A DNA stretch of 64,000 bases, taken from contig JAFGJS010000075.1 of assembly GCA_016928995.1 (NCBI GenBank), forward strand, positions 33,202 to 97,201, written 5' to 3'. The position numbers and the translations under genes were made by a program. The DNA comes from Candidatus Sumerlaeota bacterium. GTDB taxonomy: Bacteria; Sumerlaeota; Sumerlaeia; JAFGJS01. Under the pieces are notes generated by a model. It ran no database searches. It saw only the letters and a list, made by a program, of their open reading frames with translations, and was not told the DNA's origin. Of this stretch, positions 28,847 to 46,723 are shown in pieces; the first letter of the stretch is position 1, and every line of letters begins with the position of its first letter.

Positions 28847-29233
28847 ATGAAAATAATGGGCAAATCCAATCCATCTGTTGATAAAAGCTACGCCCTTGCC
28901 TTGCGAATCATCCGCTTGCATCATTATCTGCTGGAGAAACACGAATATGATCTCGCTCGCGAAGTGCTCCGATGCGGAACGGCGGTCGGACAACATGTCG
29001 AAGAAGCTGTTTCCGGCGAAAGCCCGGAGAACTTTACGACGCAAATGGCTGTCGCCTACAAAGAAGGCAGGAAAACACGATACTGGATCCGATTGCTGCG
29101 CGATAGCCATCTGATCGACGACGAAGCGGCGCAGTCAGTGCTTGAAGACATTGAAGAATTGAATAAAATCCTATTCACCATCAAGCGCACATCCTCAGTT
29201 CAATCATCTCCCAATGAGGAGTCCCAATCATGA
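28847..29233 (+). CDS. Four-helix-bundle protein, 23S rRNA intervening-sequence family
   Basis: The 128-residue product matches the family first seen inside 23S rRNA intervening sequences (TIGR02436-like): SYALALRIIRLHHYLLEKHEYDLAREVLRCGTAVG in outline, then ENFTTQMAVAYKEGRKTRYWIRLL (both quoted here only as recognised segments in the protein), ending in an acidic helix. These small helical proteins occur scattered in genomes, often next to AT-rich hairpins; their role is unknown. Two ATGs (28847 and 28856) fit; the second has AGGA ten bases upstream. The stop codon overlaps the purM start (ATGA at 29230), so translation of purM may be coupled to it, an unusual partner for a metabolic gene. 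Confidence 0.82.
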   Translation: MKIMGKSNPSVDKSYALALRIIRLHHYLLEKHEYDLAREVLRCGTAVGQHVEEAVSGESPENFTTQMAVAYKEGRKTRYWIRLLRDSHLIDDEAAQSVLEDIEELNKILFTIKRTSSVQSSPNEESQS

Positions 29234-37752: not shown

Positions 37753-39951
37753 CTAGATCTGCATCCAACGCATGCCATGCGGCGCGACGGTGACGGTCTC
37801 TTGGGAGCCGTCGCGCTTGGTGATTGCCGCGGTCTGCTCCTCGGCGCTGATGTTCGTCACGACGTACTTGCCGGCATCCTCGAAGGCCGTGCACTCGACC
37901 TGCGGATTCGATGAACTCCAGCTGTCGATGGCGTCTTCCTGCCCCGCGGCCCAGTACAGCATGCGGTTCAACAGCCGGACGGTCTGCATGGAATATTGGA
38001 ACTGCTCGCAGTAAACCGCGCGACCCTTGCCATAGGCATGCGTGGCGAGGCGGATGTGCTCATCGTCATGATCGAGCACTACCAGTTCGGGCGACATGCG
38101 CCAGACGCCCGGCTTGCGCAGGCCAGCGGGCAGGCTTGCGGCCGGATCGCCTAGAATGAAGTGGCGGTCAACCTTGGCAAACGGCGGCTTGGCGGCGCTG
38201 ATGCCGTAGCCCAGTTCGCGATCCACGCCCAGCACATCATGCAGCTGGAAGAAACGGCCCTGATGCGCGACCGCCGACGGATCGCCGATGCCGATGAAAC
38301 CGCCGCCGTTGTCCACCCACTCGCGCAGCATCGTGACCAGCTGCGCATTCTGCCAATGCCGTCCGCCGCTCCAGGCCGTGTTCGCCTCGCCCATGTTGAT
38401 GATCACCCCAACCTCTGCGGGAATGCCATCCGCCAGGATGTCGTCGAAAGACAGAAACTCAACGTCGATGTTCATGCCGGAAAGGCACTCCATCACCGCG
38501 CCGACGTAAGGCTTGGTCCAGTCGTTGATGTCCGCGTCGATCCAGGAGCGCAACTTACCCCAGCAATTCAGGATGCCGACCTTGAATGGCGCGCACGCCG
38601 GTTTCGTTCCCTGGGCCTCGTCATGGATCGAGCGGAACTCATCGCTGAGCTGCTCGACGTATTCGAGAAATTCGGGGAACTTCACAGCCAGGCTGAGGTA
38701 GCCGCCGAAGCCGATGCGGTCCGGCGGATTTTGAATCGCGGCGCGGCGCACGTTCATCCAATACTTCTTGCAGTCGCCGGCCGGATCGCCGCCCGGAGCA
38801 AATCCTGGCTTGCCCTCCAGATTCAATGGAAAGAGATACGGATACAACCGCACCTCGCGGATAATCGGCGTGGGGATGTCGGCGATGCGGCGCAGTTCGA
38901 CGCCGTTCATGCAGGGATTCACAATCGCATCGAGGCCGATCTGCGGGAAATATTTGCCATACGGCTCCGAGCCGATCCAATGGTCGCAGAAAAACATCAT
39001 CGTCTTGCGGTTGTGCTTCTTGCAGACGTCGACCCACTCGCGGCCGATCTCCGCCACCTTGCGCTGCACGAAGTCCATCCACTCCAGGTAACGCTGCGAC
39101 GGCACGCGGTTCACGTCGTTCATGAAGCCCTCGTCCACGATATCCTCGGGACGCAGCGCATAGCCTTTTTCCTTCGCGAAATCCTCCAGCGCAATCGTGC
39201 TCAGGCAATCGTGATAGCCGATCCAATCGCGGTAGCGGCTGCGCAATTGGCCGCCCATCATGGTGAAGTTGTTCGTGAAGTGATACGCCAGCGAGGTAAA
39301 ACGCACCACGTTCGTGCCCGGATTATCAATCAGCCACTGATCAAGCGTCTTCAGCAACTCGCTCTGCACTTCCGGGTGCCACGGATTCACCAGCGAGATC
39401 GGCGGCGTGGTCCAGTTGTTCGTCACGTGATTGTACATCGACGTGGTGTCCCAGATCTGATAGACGAGGAAGTTCACCGTGTACGAATGATACGCCACGG
39501 TCTTGTGGATCGTGAGCACGCCGGATTCCGCGTCGTAATTCCAATCCGCGGTATCGACCGGCTGGCCGATGGTGCGGTCCATCACCTCGAACCATTTTTT
39601 CGGATCGTGGATCGTATCGACCGCGAATTGCTGATCGAACCAGCCCTCGATCAACTTGATTTTCAGCTCGCCGCCGCGCGAAGTCGCCGGATCGGTGCTG
39701 AGATATTTCTGCGGGTAGAACTGCGGGTGCGCCTTGATCCATTTCTGGTCATAGCGCACCGGGCTGAGCGTGGAATACACCTCAAGGCCAAGCTCCGTGA
39801 TATTCTCCGGCAGGTCGGTGCCGTCGCTATTACGCACGGCGTCCGCTCCCCAACGCTTGGCCAAGTCAGCCAGCACATGATCCAATCCCGTTTCCACCGG
39901 CAGCGTCACCCGTCCGGTGCTTTTCGCAGTGAGTGTGTTCGTTTCAGCCAT
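37753..39951 (-). CDS. GH112 1,3-beta-galactosyl-N-acetylhexosamine phosphorylase, copy 1
   Basis: GH112 enzymes split beta-1,3-galactosides of GlcNAc or GalNAc (lacto-/galacto-N-biose), or beta-1,4-galactosyl-rhamnose, with phosphate to give galactose-1-phosphate. The 732-residue protein has no signal peptide, so it is cytoplasmic. The family start (TGRVTLPVETGLDHVLADLA), RFTSLAYHF, FFCDHWIGSEPYGKYF (with the Asp equivalent to the proposed acid catalyst), INMGEANTAWSGGRHW and NGGGFIGIGDPSA are present. It is clearly the most divergent of the three copies here, for example NNWTTPPISLVNPW where the others share KWTGPHQSGIDPYQPATR-like sequence, so its specificity may differ. Its GAGG ribosome binding site lies in the 18-base gap after the HEPN gene. 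Confidence 0.9.
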   Translation of the reverse strand: MAETNTLTAKSTGRVTLPVETGLDHVLADLAKRWGADAVRNSDGTDLPENITELGLEVYSTLSPVRYDQKWIKAHPQFYPQKYLSTDPATSRGGELKIKLIEGWFDQQFAVDTIHDPKKWFEVMDRTIGQPVDTADWNYDAESGVLTIHKTVAYHSYTVNFLVYQIWDTTSMYNHVTNNWTTPPISLVNPWHPEVQSELLKTLDQWLIDNPGTNVVRFTSLAYHFTNNFTMMGGQLRSRYRDWIGYHDCLSTIALEDFAKEKGYALRPEDIVDEGFMNDVNRVPSQRYLEWMDFVQRKVAEIGREWVDVCKKHNRKTMMFFCDHWIGSEPYGKYFPQIGLDAIVNPCMNGVELRRIADIPTPIIREVRLYPYLFPLNLEGKPGFAPGGDPAGDCKKYWMNVRRAAIQNPPDRIGFGGYLSLAVKFPEFLEYVEQLSDEFRSIHDEAQGTKPACAPFKVGILNCWGKLRSWIDADINDWTKPYVGAVMECLSGMNIDVEFLSFDDILADGIPAEVGVIINMGEANTAWSGGRHWQNAQLVTMLREWVDNGGGFIGIGDPSAVAHQGRFFQLHDVLGVDRELGYGISAAKPPFAKVDRHFILGDPAASLPAGLRKPGVWRMSPELVVLDHDDEHIRLATHAYGKGRAVYCEQFQYSMQTVRLLNRMLYWAAGQEDAIDSWSSSNPQVECTAFEDAGKYVVTNISAEEQTAAITKRDGSQETVTVAPHGMRWMQI

Positions 39952-39969
39952 TGTCGATTTCCTCGTTTA

Positions 39970-40911
39970 TTATGAATTTCTCCAAGTAGCATTGATGATT
40001 AAATCGTCCAAATACTCATCCCGATGTTTATTACTGTTAAATATGTTGATCAGTTGTTCGTCTAGCAATATCTTTACTAACGCCTCTCGCAACAAATTTT
40101 GGACATCTACTATTGTCTTTATGGATTCATCTTCAGTGATTTTATTTACATGATAACCATGAATCACTTTAGAACGCCATGAATACCTATTCTTCACCAT
40201 ATCAAATGTTTTTTTACATTGGTCCTTGTCTTCAGAAAGAAAAAAGGCGCATCGATTCGATATTCTATAAGTGATTTCTTGTGCGTTTTGAGGGCCAAAC
40301 AACGCTTCCATGATGCACCATAGAAGCAAAAAACGACTCGGTCCAAAGTCATCAACAAGAGAATGGATAAGCAGATATATTACATTCCAGATTATAGTGC
40401 CACGACATTCTGGCTTGTAGTGCTGATTTAATCTATCATGCAGTTTTTGGGCTAGTTTTATATCATCCTGAATATACGAGCAACAAGATTTAATCGACTC
40501 ATCCGGCTCAGAAAAAAGCACTGGTCTCCGTTTGTTGATAGAACCTCTCCATTTTTCGATAACGCCTCTTGTCAAGTCGTTTCCTGCGCCTTTATCATGT
40601 ATATATAGATAACTTTTAAACCAACCCGGCTTCGCCAGCCATAATGCAATTTGCGCGAGGAACACCAAGCGTTCTGCATTGTCTTGCTCATTCTTAGTCT
40701 CGTAGTTAATTATGAAAGCCTTTGTTGCATTTTTCAAATGATCATAATCAATAAAGCCTAAATCAAATATATCGTTTTTCTGTTGAACGATCCAATCCGG
40801 CAAAGGCCTTATTAAGACGCCGTCAGAAAATTGCAATGGATTGTCCGCATCGACTTTAATGCCCCGCAAACCAATAACCGGAACAATAAGGGACCAGGAT
40901 GCCATCATCAT
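39970..40911 (-). CDS. ApeA-like HEPN-domain protein (putative RNase)
   Basis: The 313-residue protein is encoded by AT-rich DNA quite unlike the GC-rich genes on both sides. Its C-terminal half fits the HEPN family of ApeA type: a helix FLLLWCIMEALFG, then ITYRISNRCAFFLSED, then RYSWRSKVIHG, where R246-x4-H251 is the HEPN RNase motif. Such proteins act as nucleases in anti-phage defence (ApeA) or as toxins. The N-terminal half has no motif I recognise. No antitoxin is adjacent; the gene lies between the REP/transposase unit and GH112 copy 1 and uses a GGAG site close to the REP end. This suggests acquisition as cargo or insertion next to a mobile unit. HEPN call fairly sure, defence role inferred. 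Confidence 0.72.
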   Translation of the reverse strand: MMMASWSLIVPVIGLRGIKVDADNPLQFSDGVLIRPLPDWIVQQKNDIFDLGFIDYDHLKNATKAFIINYETKNEQDNAERLVFLAQIALWLAKPGWFKSYLYIHDKGAGNDLTRGVIEKWRGSINKRRPVLFSEPDESIKSCCSYIQDDIKLAQKLHDRLNQHYKPECRGTIIWNVIYLLIHSLVDDFGPSRFLLLWCIMEALFGPQNAQEITYRISNRCAFFLSEDKDQCKKTFDMVKNRYSWRSKVIHGYHVNKITEDESIKTIVDVQNLLREALVKILLDEQLINIFNSNKHRDEYLDDLIINATWRNS

Positions 40912-40916
40912 TTCTC

Positions 40917-41010
40917 CATCAGCGCCAAAGGCGCGGATTCATACCAGCCTGGGGCGAAGCCCCAGGAAAACCAGATAATTTCACACAGGGCTGAAGGCCC
41001 GATCTATACC
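40917..41010 (+). repeat. REP-like palindromic unit, left
   Basis: Includes CCTGGGGCgaaGCCCCAGG at about 40948-40966 and GGGCTGAAGGCCC at about 40988-41000. The first 53 bases are nearly the reverse complement of the right unit's outer end. Confidence 0.85.
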
Positions 41011-41020
41011 TATGTGAACT

Positions 41021-41473
41021 TCAATCCCACACGTAGGCTTCGTCATATTCAACGCCGTATTTTTTCAGAAACATCCTGAATTCATCCTGAAATGTTCTTT
41101 TCTCATGATGCTCTTGCTGACGGTCAATATAATTCATCAGGGCAGCCAAATCATTGGGACCAATGGAAAAACATCCATAACCTCGTTGCCAAGCGAATTC
41201 GGACAGATGTCCCCCTTGTGTTTTAATCCATTTCGATGAAGCAGTCTTCAACTTCTCAACCAAATCGGCGATTGTAATCGTGCGGGAAAGCCTAATAGCA
41301 AAATGAACATGATCCTCCACGCCGTCGACACGATAGCATTCGCAACCTGCATTGCGCGCGACAGATGCAAGATATGCATGCGTCGATTCGCGGATGGTCG
41401 CATCAAGAAAAGGTTTACGATCCTTGGTGCTGAAAATCAAATGGACAATGACCAAACTCAACGATTGCGGCAT
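41021..41473 (-). CDS. REP-associated IS200-like tyrosine (HUH) transposase
   Basis: The 150-residue protein is a Y1 transposase: LVIVHLIFSTKDRKPFL at the start, the HUH pair in VEDHVHFAI (H55, H57), the helix LVEKLKTASSKWIKT and the catalytic tyrosine in LMNYIDRQQEHH (Y115). RAYT-type proteins cut and join single-stranded REP hairpins and are usually single copy and domesticated rather than free insertion sequences. The two REP sequences flanking this gene are the expected partners. The protein is complete, so activity is possible. It has no visible Shine-Dalgarno. Confidence 0.9.
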   Translation of the reverse strand: MPQSLSLVIVHLIFSTKDRKPFLDATIRESTHAYLASVARNAGCECYRVDGVEDHVHFAIRLSRTITIADLVEKLKTASSKWIKTQGGHLSEFAWQRGYGCFSIGPNDLAALMNYIDRQQEHHEKRTFQDEFRMFLKKYGVEYDEAYVWD

Positions 41474-41571
41474 GATAATCGATCGGGCTTTCAGCCCTTA
41501 TTTCCTATTTGGATTTCCTTTCCTGGGGCTATGCCCCAGGCTGATATGAATTCGCGCCGTTAGCGCTGATG
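41474..41571 (-). repeat. REP-like palindromic unit, right
   Basis: Inverted copy of the left unit. CCTGGGGCtatGCCCCAGG spans about 41522-41540, GGGCTtTCAGCCC about 41485-41497. The central 20 bases differ from the left copy, while the palindromes are kept. Confidence 0.85.
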
Positions 41572-41592
41572 AATATTTTGCGAAACGATTAT

Positions 41593-43779
41593 TCATTGAA
41601 TCGAAATCCACTGCATCTCATTCGGTTTGAGATCCAATTCATGCGCCTTGCCGTCGCCGTCGAATAGAGTGGTCTTTTGCGGTTCGTCGGAGTTGTTTAC
41701 GACGGCGCATTGGCCGGATTCGATGAATGCGGCGCACTCGGTGTTCGGATTCGACACGGTCCATTTGCCCCAGGCGTCTTCCTGTCCGGACGCCCAGTAC
41801 AGCGCGCGCAGCATCACGCGCAGGTTCTGCGGATTGAGCGAGAAAGCCGGCAGATAAACCGAACGGCCCTTGCCGAACGTATGCGCCGCGAGCGAAATCG
41901 TGCCGTCCTGCTCAGCGAGAATCTGCGTCTTGGGATCGGCTGCGAAAGATTCGCCGGGGAGCTTGCCGAAGTCTAGCTCGCCCTCGACATCAGCCGTGAT
42001 GAAATGCGCTTCAGGCTTTTCGCCTTCGATGATTTTCCAGTTGTTGCAATTCGCCTCGGTGCCGCGCAACACGCCCAGCACATCCTCAAGTTGCAGGTAG
42101 CGGCCCTGATACTCAAACGCGGTCGGTTCGCCGACGCCGATGAAACCGCCGCCTTCGGCGACGAACTTGCGCACGGCTGTCGTGACTTCCGGATCGGTCC
42201 AATGATGCCCGCCGCTCCATGCGGTGTCCGCCATACCGTAATTCAAGATCACCTTGGCGTCCTTCGGCAATCCGTTTTGCTTCATCTCATCGAAACTCAT
42301 GAACTCCAAATCGACCGGCAGCCCCGTGAAGCCCTCGATCAAATTGCCGACCGGCCAGCCCGGATCGCCATGCATCCAGGTGCGCAGCTTGCCCCAGGCG
42401 TTGAGCACAACGACCTTGCCCGGCAGCGCATACGGCGCGCCTTGCGCATGGCAATCCGCGATCTGCCGGAATTCATTGGCCACGACTTCGACCGCGTCGA
42501 GAAACTCGGGGAACTTGATCGCCAACGAGAGATAGCCGCCGTAGCCGATGCGATCCACGCATTTGCGCAGCATCGCGCGCCGCACCCGTGACCAATAGCG
42601 CTGACACTCGCCCACCGGATCGCCGCCCTCGCCCTCGAACAGCGGCTGCCCCATCAGGTTGACCGGGAAGAAGTAGGGATAAAGCCGGACTTCCTTGACC
42701 ACGTCGCCCGGCACGTCGGCCATGCGCCGCAACTCCGTGCCGTTGATGCACGGATTCACCAGGCCGTCGAAGCCCATGCTAGCGAAACGCTCGCCGTAAG
42801 GCTCCGTACCGATCCAGTGGTCGCAGAAAAACATGATCGCCTTCTTGCCGCGTGCATGCACTTTCTCCACCCACTCGCGTGCGAAATCCGTGGTGAACGC
42901 GTTGACGAAGTCGATCCAATCCAAATATTCTTTGGTCGGCACGCGGCCGGTCATGTTGTAATAACCCGCATCGACCAGATGCTCCGGACGCAGCCGGTAG
43001 CCTTTTTGCTTTTCGAACTCGTCCATCGCGCGGGCGGAGATGCAATCCAGGTACGCGCACCAATCCTGAAAGCGGTTCTTGCCCTCGCGATTCGGCATGA
43101 TCGGGAACTGATACGCCACGGAGGTGAAACGCACGACGTCGGTGTACGGATGCTCGTCAATCCACTTGTCGAGATAGGTCAGCAAATGCTTGCGCGTCGC
43201 GGGCTGATACGGATCGATGCCCGACTGATGCGGCCCGGTCCATTTGTTCACGATGTAGTTGTACATCGAGGTGGTTTCCCAAATCTGGTACGCGAGGAAG
43301 TTGACCGTGTAGACGTGCCAGGGCGTGCAGTGCTTGATCGTGACCGCGCCGGTCTCCTCGGAGAACGACCAGTGCGCCGGATCGACCACCTCGCCGGTGG
43401 AGCGGTCGATCACTTCCCAGTACTTTTTCGGATCATGCACGGTGTCGAGTTTGAACTTGTCGAGGCTCCAGCTTTGCATCAGGTCGATCGTCACGGTGTC
43501 CGATTCCGCGTTGTGCGGATCCGACATCAGGTACTTCTGCTGGCACTCGTCCATGTGTGCGTTGTTCCACTCCTGATCCGCGCGGATCATGCACAGCGTC
43601 GAGTAAATCTCGAAGTCCATCTCGGTGAGTTCCGGCGACAGCACCGTCCCATCGCTGTCGCGGATGGCGTCCGCGCCCCATTTTTCAGCGAGTTGAATAG
43701 TTTCCTTTTCCATGCCATCCTGAGTCGGCAGGGTGAACCGGCCTGTGCTTTTTGAAACGTTTGAATTACTATCAGCCAT
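41593..43779 (-). CDS. GH112 1,3-beta-galactosyl-N-acetylhexosamine phosphorylase, copy 2
   Basis: The 728-residue protein has the same cytoplasmic GH112 layout as copy 1: TGRFTLPTQDGMEKETIQLA start, RFTSVAYQF, MFFCDHWIGTEPYGERF (D320 is the likely catalytic acid), GMADTAWSGGHHW and GGGFIGVGEPTAFEYQGR. It is far closer to copy 3 than to copy 1: long stretches such as WTGPHQSGIDPYQPATRKHL and DIGA-free HLVDAGYYN are shared, pointing to a later duplication. The gene ends 21 bases before the REP unit, so the mobile unit has inserted immediately downstream. A GGATGGAG site precedes the ATG. Confidence 0.92.
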   Translation of the reverse strand: MADSNSNVSKSTGRFTLPTQDGMEKETIQLAEKWGADAIRDSDGTVLSPELTEMDFEIYSTLCMIRADQEWNNAHMDECQQKYLMSDPHNAESDTVTIDLMQSWSLDKFKLDTVHDPKKYWEVIDRSTGEVVDPAHWSFSEETGAVTIKHCTPWHVYTVNFLAYQIWETTSMYNYIVNKWTGPHQSGIDPYQPATRKHLLTYLDKWIDEHPYTDVVRFTSVAYQFPIMPNREGKNRFQDWCAYLDCISARAMDEFEKQKGYRLRPEHLVDAGYYNMTGRVPTKEYLDWIDFVNAFTTDFAREWVEKVHARGKKAIMFFCDHWIGTEPYGERFASMGFDGLVNPCINGTELRRMADVPGDVVKEVRLYPYFFPVNLMGQPLFEGEGGDPVGECQRYWSRVRRAMLRKCVDRIGYGGYLSLAIKFPEFLDAVEVVANEFRQIADCHAQGAPYALPGKVVVLNAWGKLRTWMHGDPGWPVGNLIEGFTGLPVDLEFMSFDEMKQNGLPKDAKVILNYGMADTAWSGGHHWTDPEVTTAVRKFVAEGGGFIGVGEPTAFEYQGRYLQLEDVLGVLRGTEANCNNWKIIEGEKPEAHFITADVEGELDFGKLPGESFAADPKTQILAEQDGTISLAAHTFGKGRSVYLPAFSLNPQNLRVMLRALYWASGQEDAWGKWTVSNPNTECAAFIESGQCAVVNNSDEPQKTTLFDGDGKAHELDLKPNEMQWISIQ

Positions 43780-43885
43780 TGCTCCATCCCCATTCTATTT
43801 GTTCAGATGATACCGTTTTCAATTTTTTATATCGAACCTTGGGTGCTCAAAAAAAACAATGATTCGCGTGCGTTGCATTAGAACA

Positions 43886-44365
43886 TTACGACTTGGATAG
43901 AATGCGTGTTATCTGCCGGATGTGCAGCGGGTCGTGCCAACTTGCGAGAAACAACTGATCGTTCAAACTGAACGGCGGATATTGCGGATGCCGCCCCTCC
44001 CGCTCCCAGTCTTCTTCAGGAATAGTTTTTAAGAACGCCAAAAATTTTTCGCGCGCCTCACGCCAGTCGTTGACAATGTCCATCGGCTCGCGCTCGTTGT
44101 AGCGCCCTTTGAGCACCTCTTCATCCTGCGGTGGAAAGGGCAGCATGGGGCTGTCCTGGGTCACGGTGAGTTGCGCGCGCTCCAGAAACAGCCGCTCGCA
44201 GTCCAGCAGATGCCCAACCACTTCGGTCACGGTCCATCCTCCTTCGCGTTCGCGCAATGTGGTCAAGTCTTCCGCCGGATGGCTCTCCACGATGTGCTGC
44301 ACAATGTCCAGCATGCACGTTAGTTGCTCCATATTCGAACGCCGTAATGTAGCTATAGGACGCAT
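43886..44365 (-). CDS. DinB-superfamily (DUF664/YfiT-like) protein
   Basis: The 159-residue helical-bundle protein has GGWTVTEVVGHLLDCERLFL and ends in WHDPLHIRQITRIL. The three histidines (H52, H144, H148) form the metal-binding triad of the DinB-like superfamily, whose members are metal hydrolases or thiol-dependent S-transferases. The substrate is unknown. It lies between two GH112 genes on the same strand but with large gaps, so a shared function is unlikely. This is unrelated to DNA polymerase IV, which is also named dinB. Confidence 0.87.
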   Translation of the reverse strand: MRPIATLRRSNMEQLTCMLDIVQHIVESHPAEDLTTLREREGGWTVTEVVGHLLDCERLFLERAQLTVTQDSPMLPFPPQDEEVLKGRYNEREPMDIVNDWREAREKFLAFLKTIPEEDWEREGRHPQYPPFSLNDQLFLASWHDPLHIRQITRILSKS

Positions 44366-44425
44366 GATTCACCGCCGATCATTCGCGATCTTTTTTTTAC
44401 TTGCTGATGTTACGCAACCATGTAT

Positions 44426-44533
44426 TTTTGGAGTGCGGCGGCATGACGCCGCATTGGTGTGGCGCGACGTGTCGCGCCACGATTTTCCTCCAAACGGCAT
44501 GATAAAGCGGCGACGCGTCGCCGCACTCCAAAA
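44426..44533. repeat. Palindrome-rich MITE- or REP-like element, about 108 bp
   Basis: Terminal inverted repeats TTTTGGAGTGCGGCG (44426-44440) and its complement (44519-44533) enclose three hairpins: GCGGCGgcatgaCGCCGC, GTGGCGCGAC-gt-GTCGCGCCAC (44459-44480) and CGGCGAC-gc-GTCGCCG. It fills the space between the GH112 copy 3 stop and the DinB-family start. Confidence 0.82.
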
Positions 44534-44557
44534 TTGCAGCGCCCTGCTTTACATCAA

Positions 44558-46723
44558 TCATTGAATCGGAATCCACTTCATCTCGCTGGGCGCCAGCTCG
44601 ATGTCTTGCGGCTGGCCATTGCCGTCCAGCAAGGTCGTGCTTTGTGCTTCGGCGGTGTTGTTGAGCACCGCGCAAACGCCGGACTCAACGAACGCCGCGC
44701 ATTCCGTGTGCGGATTGGACACGCTCCATTTCTGATATTCGCCTTCCTGACCGGACGCCCAATACAGCGCGCGCAGGAACATGCGCAGGTTCCGCGGACC
44801 TCCGGAATAGCCGCCCAGATAAACCGAACGACCCAGGCCGAAGGTGTTCACGGCCAGCGAGATGACGCCGTCCTGTTCGGCCAGAATCTGCAAGCCGGGA
44901 TTCGTGGCGAAAACATGCCCGGCCAGCGAGCCGAACTTCAGTTCGCCCTCGACGTCCGCCGTGATGAAATGCTCATCGACTTTCTGTCCACGAATCAGTT
45001 TGCGGTTGCTGACGTTCGCCGAGGTGTGGCGCTGCACGCCGAGAAGCTCTTCCATCTGCAGGTAGCGCCCCTGATGCTCGACGGCCGTGGGTTCGTAGAT
45101 GCCGATGAAACCGCCGCCCTCGCCGACAAACTTGCGGATGGCGATCACAACGTCCGGATCGGTCCAATGGCGTCCGCCGCTCCAGGCGCTGTCCGCCGCG
45201 CCGTAGTTGATCACGACCTTCGTGTTTTCCGGCAGGCCGTTCTGCTTCAGTTCGTCAAAGCTCATGAATTCGAAATCAACCGGCAAACCGGACATGCCTT
45301 CGAGCAGACCTCCGCCCGGCACATCGCCGCAAATCCAGCTGCGCCGTTTGCCCCAGGCGTTCAGAATCACGACCTTGCCCGGCATCGTATATGCCGCGCC
45401 CTGCTCCGAGTGATCGGCTATCTGACGAAACTCGTCGGCCACCACTTCCACGGCGTCGAGGAATTCGGGAAACTTGACCGCCAGCGAAAGATAGCCGCCG
45501 AAACCGATGCGATCCACGCACCTGCGCACCATGGCGCGGCGCACGTTGCTCCAGTAATACTTGCACTCGCCGACCGGATCGCCGCCTTCGCCTTCAAAGA
45601 GATTCCTGCCGCTCAAGTTGACCGGAAAGAAGTAAGGATAGAGCCGCACTTCCTTGATCACATCATATGGCACATCGGCGACGCGCCGCAGTTCCGTGCC
45701 GTTGATGCAGGGAGTCACCAGTCCGTCGAAGCCCATTTTGGGAAAGCGCTCGCCGTAAGGCTCGGTGCCGATCCAATGATCGCAGAAGAACATGATCGCC
45801 TTCTTGCCGCGGTCATGCGCCATCTTCACCCACTCCCCGGCGAAGTCCGTGGTGAACTCGTTGACGAAATCGACCCAGTCGAGGTACTCCTTGCTGGGCA
45901 CACGGCCAGTGGCGTTGTAATACCCCGCGTCAACGAGATGCTCGGAGCGCAGCCGGTAGCCTTTTCGCTTCTCAAACTCGTCCAGCGCGCGCGCGGAGAT
46001 GCAGTCCAGATAGCAGCACCAATCCTGAAAGCGCGTCGTGCGATCCTCGCGCTCCATGCTCGGAAACTGATACGCCACGGAGGTGAAACGCACCACGTCG
46101 GTGTGCGGATGCTCGTCAATCCATTTATCGAGGTATTCCAGCAGGTGCTTGCGCGTGGCGGGCTGGTACGGATCGATGCCCGACTGATGCGGCCCGGTCC
46201 AGTGGTTGACGATGTAGTTGTACATCGAGGTCGTTTCCCAAATCTGGTACACGAGGAAATTCACAGTGTACAGATGCCAGGGGATCGTGTTCTTGATCGT
46301 GACCTTGCCGGTCTCCTTGTCGAACGACCAGTTCGCCGTGTCGATCACCTCGCCCGTGGTGCGGTCGATCACCTCCCAGTACCTGGCGGGATCGTGATGC
46401 CGATCGATGGTGAATTTCTCGTCGCTCCAGTTGTACATGATATCGACGACCAGCGTGCCGGACTCGGCCATGCGCGGATCGGACATCAGGAACTTCTGCT
46501 GGCACTCGTGCATGTTGGCGTTGTTCCAGTCCTGATCCGCGCGGATCATGCAGAGCGTGGAGTAAATCTCGAAATCCATCGCGGTGAGCTCGGGTGAAAG
46601 CACGGTTCCGTCGCTGTCGCGGATGGCGTCCGCGCCCCATTTTTCGGCCAGTTCAAGGGTTTCCTTTTCCATGCCCGACTGCGTCGGCAATGTGAATCGC
46701 CCTGTTAATTTTTGGGTCATCAT
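44558..46723 (-). CDS. GH112 1,3-beta-galactosyl-N-acetylhexosamine phosphorylase, copy 3
   Basis: The 721-residue cytoplasmic enzyme starts at the ATG behind AGAGGAGAT and matches copy 2 over its whole length (TGRFTLPTQSGMEKETLELA; MFFCDHWIGTEPYGERFPKM; GAADSAWSGGRHWTD; YEPTAVEHQGRY). Differences from copy 2 are spread evenly, not in one domain, so it looks like a functional paralogue, not a relic. Phosphorolysis would give galactose-1-phosphate and GlcNAc or GalNAc. Three GH112 genes in one locus is unusual; Lachnoclostridium phytofermentans is a known genome with three, where they differ in acceptor specificity. The GH16-like gene lies upstream on the same strand. Confidence 0.92.
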   Translation of the reverse strand: MMTQKLTGRFTLPTQSGMEKETLELAEKWGADAIRDSDGTVLSPELTAMDFEIYSTLCMIRADQDWNNANMHECQQKFLMSDPRMAESGTLVVDIMYNWSDEKFTIDRHHDPARYWEVIDRTTGEVIDTANWSFDKETGKVTIKNTIPWHLYTVNFLVYQIWETTSMYNYIVNHWTGPHQSGIDPYQPATRKHLLEYLDKWIDEHPHTDVVRFTSVAYQFPSMEREDRTTRFQDWCCYLDCISARALDEFEKRKGYRLRSEHLVDAGYYNATGRVPSKEYLDWVDFVNEFTTDFAGEWVKMAHDRGKKAIMFFCDHWIGTEPYGERFPKMGFDGLVTPCINGTELRRVADVPYDVIKEVRLYPYFFPVNLSGRNLFEGEGGDPVGECKYYWSNVRRAMVRRCVDRIGFGGYLSLAVKFPEFLDAVEVVADEFRQIADHSEQGAAYTMPGKVVILNAWGKRRSWICGDVPGGGLLEGMSGLPVDFEFMSFDELKQNGLPENTKVVINYGAADSAWSGGRHWTDPDVVIAIRKFVGEGGGFIGIYEPTAVEHQGRYLQMEELLGVQRHTSANVSNRKLIRGQKVDEHFITADVEGELKFGSLAGHVFATNPGLQILAEQDGVISLAVNTFGLGRSVYLGGYSGGPRNLRMFLRALYWASGQEGEYQKWSVSNPHTECAAFVESGVCAVLNNTAEAQSTTLLDGNGQPQDIELAPSEMKWIPIQ

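Follow-up and report, generated by a model that had tools for sequence, protein, structure and literature searches.

A stand-alone, AT-rich HEPN gene beside a REPtron in Candidatus Sumerlaeota as a candidate single-gene defence system

An AT-rich gene lies among GH112 genes and next to a REPtron

We analysed a stretch of 64,000 nt (referred to here as the window) from a Candidatus Sumerlaeota genome (GCA_016928995.1, contig JAFGJS010000075.1), in which an intact ORF encoding a 313 aa protein with a HEPN domain is found between GH112 phosphorylase genes and next to a REP-associated transposase gene (Table 1). The initial annotation had singled out this gene as AT-rich within a GC-rich region. 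Consistent with this description, its GC and GC3 values (0.381 and 0.387) are the lowest among the 46 window ORFs of at least 120 aa, the second-lowest GC being that of the adjoining transposase gene (0.451), in a window of ~58% GC. Translation starts at 40911 or, more likely given the spacing to the ribosome-binding site, at the third ATG at 40905. The gene had also been described as sitting alone, and we likewise detected no partner gene or antitoxin adjoining it in the window.

Elsewhere in the window, we noted a second AT-rich stretch at positions 1-2000 (GC 0.455 and 0.395), as well as a small ORF at 28847-29233 that resembles a four-helix-bundle 'intervening sequence' protein (MKIMGKSNPSVDKSYALALRIIRLHHYLLEKHEYDLAREVLRCGTAVGQH) and has a GC of 0.487, low for the window.

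Table 1. Features of the HEPN locus and genes near relatives of the HEPN gene (window positions unless a locus is named).
Feature	Location	Strand	Evidence or remark
GH112 phosphorylase, downstream	37753..39951	-	TIGR02336, 3.7e-252; 18 bp past the HEPN stop codon
Stand-alone HEPN gene	39970..40911	-	313 aa, GC 0.381
HEPN domain, residues 148-306, all helical	39994..40470	-	structure models
R246-S-K-V-I-H251, HEPN Rx4H motif, end of long helix	40159..40176	-	alignments and model
E202, conserved acidic residue, HEPN helix 2	40306..40308	-	alignments and model
N-terminal region, residues 1-146, presumed sensor	40474..40911	-	low model confidence
Complete REPtron, mirrored composite REP ends	~40918..41571	.	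neighbour, outside the HEPN unit
RAYT, REP-associated Y1 transposase (IS200/Y1)	41021..41473	-	PF01797, E 4.8e-25
GH112 paralogue, upstream	41593..43779	-	PF09508, 3.8e-174; 47% identical to the downstream copy
Thoeris ThsB-ThsA	L017		
MNT-HEPN pair	L020		translation reading
SIR2 and HerA	L025		
Possible second ApeA_NTD1 gene	L026, 2317-3888		a guess
Methyltransferase	L029		
FRG-like genes	L031, L033		translation reading
Fic genes	L032		
ApeA_NTD1 protein; methyltransferase, nuclease and recombinase-like genes	L036, 3756-5138 (ApeA_NTD1 protein)		

The neighbours named in the initial annotation were recovered, with the Y1 transposase upstream (PF01797) and GH112 genes on either side (TIGR02336 and PF09508). 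The aligned arms of the REPtron (40907-41007 and 41478-41589) gave a score of 105, compared with 36 for the best of 200 shuffles, and the left end of the element directly precedes the ribosome-binding site and start of the HEPN gene. Five further copies of the transposase are present in the genome (38-49% identity), and inverted flanking arms were seen in all three of those examined. Since mirrored arms flank the transposase here and likewise in the three examined genome copies, the REPtron is a self-contained unit. We also considered a REP transposon that carries the HEPN gene as cargo, and rejected it because the mirrored ends enclose the transposase alone. The earlier proposal of a single-gene cargo between a mobile unit and a sugar gene therefore stands with respect to position and to the single gene, but the REP element is not the carrier.

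With the REPtron removed in thought, GH112, HEPN and GH112 genes follow one another ~20 bp apart in an operon-like arrangement. The window contains three tandem GH112 phosphorylase genes (37753-46723), and two more, 42-48% identical to the first, are found elsewhere in the genome. Between a DinB-like gene on one side and GH112 on the other, a segment of ~110 bp (44424-44534) whose ends mirror each other (TTTTTGGAGTGCGGCG ... GCCGCACTCCAAAAT) and whose interior contains palindromes resembles a small mobile repeat.

We searched 39 other genomes of the phylum and detected neither GH112 nor, by protein and profile searches, the family of the HEPN gene. Vertical inheritance of the HEPN gene together with GH112 is thus unsupported, and the absence of the HEPN gene from these genomes suggests that it was probably acquired horizontally. 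This absence and the lowest GC of the window ORFs are in line with the foreign origin first proposed for the gene. The initial annotation had added that a GH112 neighbourhood conserved in many genomes would imply vertical inheritance; none was conserved among the relatives described below.

Alignments and models support a HEPN fold in the C-terminal half

Scans of the 313 aa protein against Pfam, NCBIfam and PADLOC gave no match, while a tblastn search of plasmids, run with a permissive threshold, gave weak matches (E 0.03-7), mostly over the C-terminal region and mainly to 'HEPN domain-containing' proteins. Ten relatives were taken from these plasmid matches without use of a motif pattern, and in their alignment with the query E202, Y243, R246, S247 and H251 were invariant (11 of 11 sequences). 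E202, R246, S247 and H251 also were retained in two relatives found by profile, and E202 was >90% conserved in a further family alignment. As judged from these alignments, the R246-x4-H251 motif, which had been predicted from the sequence and is present as R246-SKVI-H251, is beyond chance. Among a further 22 loci (L015-L036), invariance of the motif is partly by construction, since Y[NSQ]xRSK[VL][IV]HG was itself the pattern used to retrieve these loci.

In a full-length structure model, the C-terminal half was confident and helical and the N-terminal half was poor. When the HEPN domain was modelled alone, the mean pLDDT was 90.9, with values of at least 90 for 131 of 174 residues. We compared this fold with known structures by VIA-align, run over the 1000 best chains from Foldseek. 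Rows 1-12 were HEPN-MNT toxins, Csm6, HI0074 and AF0298 (Z 8.0-6.6), the first unrelated row had a Z of 6.1, and HEPN structures occupied 15 of the top 16 rows, with a best Z of 8.0 that is modest for a helical bundle. Foldseek gave no match with E <= 0.001 in the PDB or among viral models. In the HEPN superfamily, helix 3 ends in the Rx4-6H motif, the R is followed by a polar residue, and helix 2 holds an acidic residue (PMC3710099). The positions of the query motif and of E202 agree with this layout in both alignments and models, so that Rx4-6H with a polar residue after the R, a helical fold and a helix-2 acidic residue all are found in the query. Collectively, these data support the conclusion that the C-terminal half of the protein carries a HEPN fold. 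The HEPN assignment of the initial annotation, which was to be withdrawn had profile-profile searches given no HEPN match, was supported by the fold comparison together with the intact motif.

Residues 1-146 were modelled, at low confidence, as a mixture of strands and helices. When compared with 32 family sequences, the N-terminus of the query was similar only to that of L015 (E 2.7e-4), and a profile of the other family N-termini scored 7.2 bits against the query, with 6.9 bits for the best shuffle.

Relatives are widespread, and some adjoin defence genes

A PHROGs family, phrog_28161, matched the query over residues 196-277 (E 4.4e-8) and also matched 25 of 33 members of the family, which we refer to as phrog_28161-like. 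A pattern derived from a related alignment, run against 84,980 species genomes, yielded the 22 relatives L015-L036. The best of these, from a Nitrosospira MAG, was collinear with the query over residues 25-304, and its best segment was 29% identical (5e-34). Family members were found in Bacteroidota, Pseudomonadota, Bacillota, Actinomycetota, Chloroflexota and Acidobacteriota, with one Spirochaeta and one Microgenomates genome as further hosts. Occurrence was patchy in one other genus, with the family present in 3 of 19 genomes, and in 20 of 22 loci the GC of the HEPN gene fell below that of the locus as a whole. The HEPN models of Pfam and NCBIfam matched none of the 33 members, and PADLOC has no model for the family and gave no consistent match among its members. 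In viral contigs, a single-protein scan detected no relative and none of the 150 pattern matches from an alignment scan was confirmed; tblastn in phages gave chance-level matches only.

Defence-type genes were found near the HEPN gene in ~9 of the 22 loci (Table 1), a raw count without a background rate in which several of the genes were recognised by reading translations; in more than half of the loci, the genes closest by included none for defence. The neighbours differ from locus to locus. R-M genes count among the neighbours, and HigBA-like genes, again recognised from translations, also were found near relatives. The identity of the ApeA_NTD1 protein in L036 is backed by its homologues. 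L015, the closest relative, is set amid cytochrome and other ordinary genes, and the nearest genes in the window are GH112 and the transposase rather than a defence island. No partner gene recurred among the 22 loci, which argues that the family is stand-alone.

Members on plasmids were found behind an integrase (L003) and near transposases. In three enterobacterial phage-plasmids (L008, L009 and L014), the member occupies one fixed place between a ParA/MipZ-like gene and tail-fibre genes, which is a possible cargo slot. A 'phage integrase family protein' gene was observed directly before the family HEPN gene on a Cupriavidus plasmid (L003:831-4324) and directly before an ApeA homologue on a Burkholderia latens plasmid (L047:1-1668). 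Both are Burkholderiaceae plasmids, and the arrangement looks like an exchange of HEPN cargo.

A proposed model for single-gene abortive defence

Given that relatives often adjoin anti-phage genes, the gene is a probable one-gene phage-defence or cell-shutdown device. Based on the sequence comparisons and models, the reading we lean towards, with somewhat more confidence than doubt, is a horizontally spread, single-gene abortive defence system in which an N-terminal sensor is joined to a HEPN RNase. The variable N-terminal region would sense a cue, and the C-terminal domain, as suggested by conservation and fold, would act as a metal-independent RNase via R246 and H251, aided by E202 and S247. 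The protein would be silent until infection, whereupon it would cut cellular or phage RNA and growth would stop. HEPN RNases generally are dimeric, and this domain probably acts as a dimer as well. The gene would spread horizontally singly, and here would have landed between tandem GH112 genes beside the REPtron. An anti-phage function, a trigger and RNase activity are what we infer for the gene; we know of no defence assay for any of the family members found.

Many HEPN proteins are toxins, and the 18 bp spacing to GH112 would permit co-transcription with the sugar-phosphorylase gene, as might be expected if the protein served not in phage defence but as a toxin with a cognate antitoxin, or as a regulatory RNase that has been domesticated. 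We consider this unlikely, however, given that no antitoxin-sized partner adjoins the gene here, that no partner is conserved in the 22 loci, and that GH112 was not seen beside family members elsewhere. It is even harder to credit a HEPN protein that lacks enzymatic activity, or an insertion that is decaying and has no present function. The gene is a foreign insert beside a transposon, and some HEPN domains lack the RNase motif (PMC3710099), but the ORF is intact and the catalytic motif, the acidic residue and the ribosome-binding site are retained.

As a single-gene defence candidate, the protein is of a known kind, a HEPN RNase with predicted activity, in a family for which Pfam, NCBIfam and PADLOC have no model and for which a defence role is plausible. 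Whether its relatives make up a broad, uncharacterised single-gene defence family, with a fast-changing N-terminal sensor, a HEPN RNase and the signature ALEALFG...YxxRSKxVHG, spread across phyla, plasmids and phage-plasmids and missed by domain and defence libraries, is in our view an evenly balanced question. If such a family exists, Pfam, NCBIfam and PADLOC miss a common HEPN family of defence islands, and single-gene RNase systems therefore would be undercounted in defence surveys. The signature and alignment suffice for building a model and for picking members for phage assays. The window would then be an example of a defence-type gene outside islands, amid metabolic genes and beside a REPtron.

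Comparison with known HEPN systems

The initial annotation read RSKVIHG as an ApeA-type ending and proposed a profile search against HEPN_Apea. This part of the annotation did not hold: the motif is RNYxTHY in most of nine aligned ApeA homologues compared with RSKxVHG in the query family, and PF18739 (HEPN_Apea) had no match in the protein or in the genome. ApeA_NTD1 (PF18862) also was not matched by the protein. ApeA chains were the nearest solved proteins in a profile search of the PDB, at sub-threshold E values of 0.019 and 0.046, and with a HEPN-only profile they were found at E 0.067-0.85, below significance. Two hhalign comparisons with the nine-homologue alignment gave probabilities of 36.7% and 9.4%, and in one of the two E202 and R246-H251 were in register with the ApeA E and R-x4-H. 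These similarities would fit an ApeA that has diverged and whose N-terminal domain was lost or replaced. Set against the unmatched domains, the low hhalign probabilities, the different motif and the occurrence of ApeA-NTD1 proteins as separate neighbours of the phrog_28161-like family, we regard such an origin as very doubtful.

The HEPN protein resembles ApeA in outline, in that both are stand-alone proteins with an N-terminal domain and a C-terminal HEPN domain and show weak profile similarity, but it is not filed as ApeA because the ApeA Pfam domains are unmatched and the motif differs. The lengths also differ, with 313 aa for the query compared with ~460 aa for the aligned ApeA homologues and 593-619 aa for the solved Ec2ApeA and Ec4ApeA.

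HEPN-MNT toxins (8xeh, 8xdj and 7ae9) have the helical fold in common with the query (Z 8.0-7.6 over 101-112 residues), but pair with a nucleotidyltransferase antitoxin, whereas none adjoins the query gene. The HEPN domain of Csm6 (5fsh and 6tug) also has the same fold (Z 7.7-7.2); no CARF domain was recognised in the query, whose N-terminal half is too poorly modelled for comparison. The phrog_28161 family, for which PHROGs names no function or domain and whose match spans the HEPN core only, has 315 positions and thus is close to the query in length.
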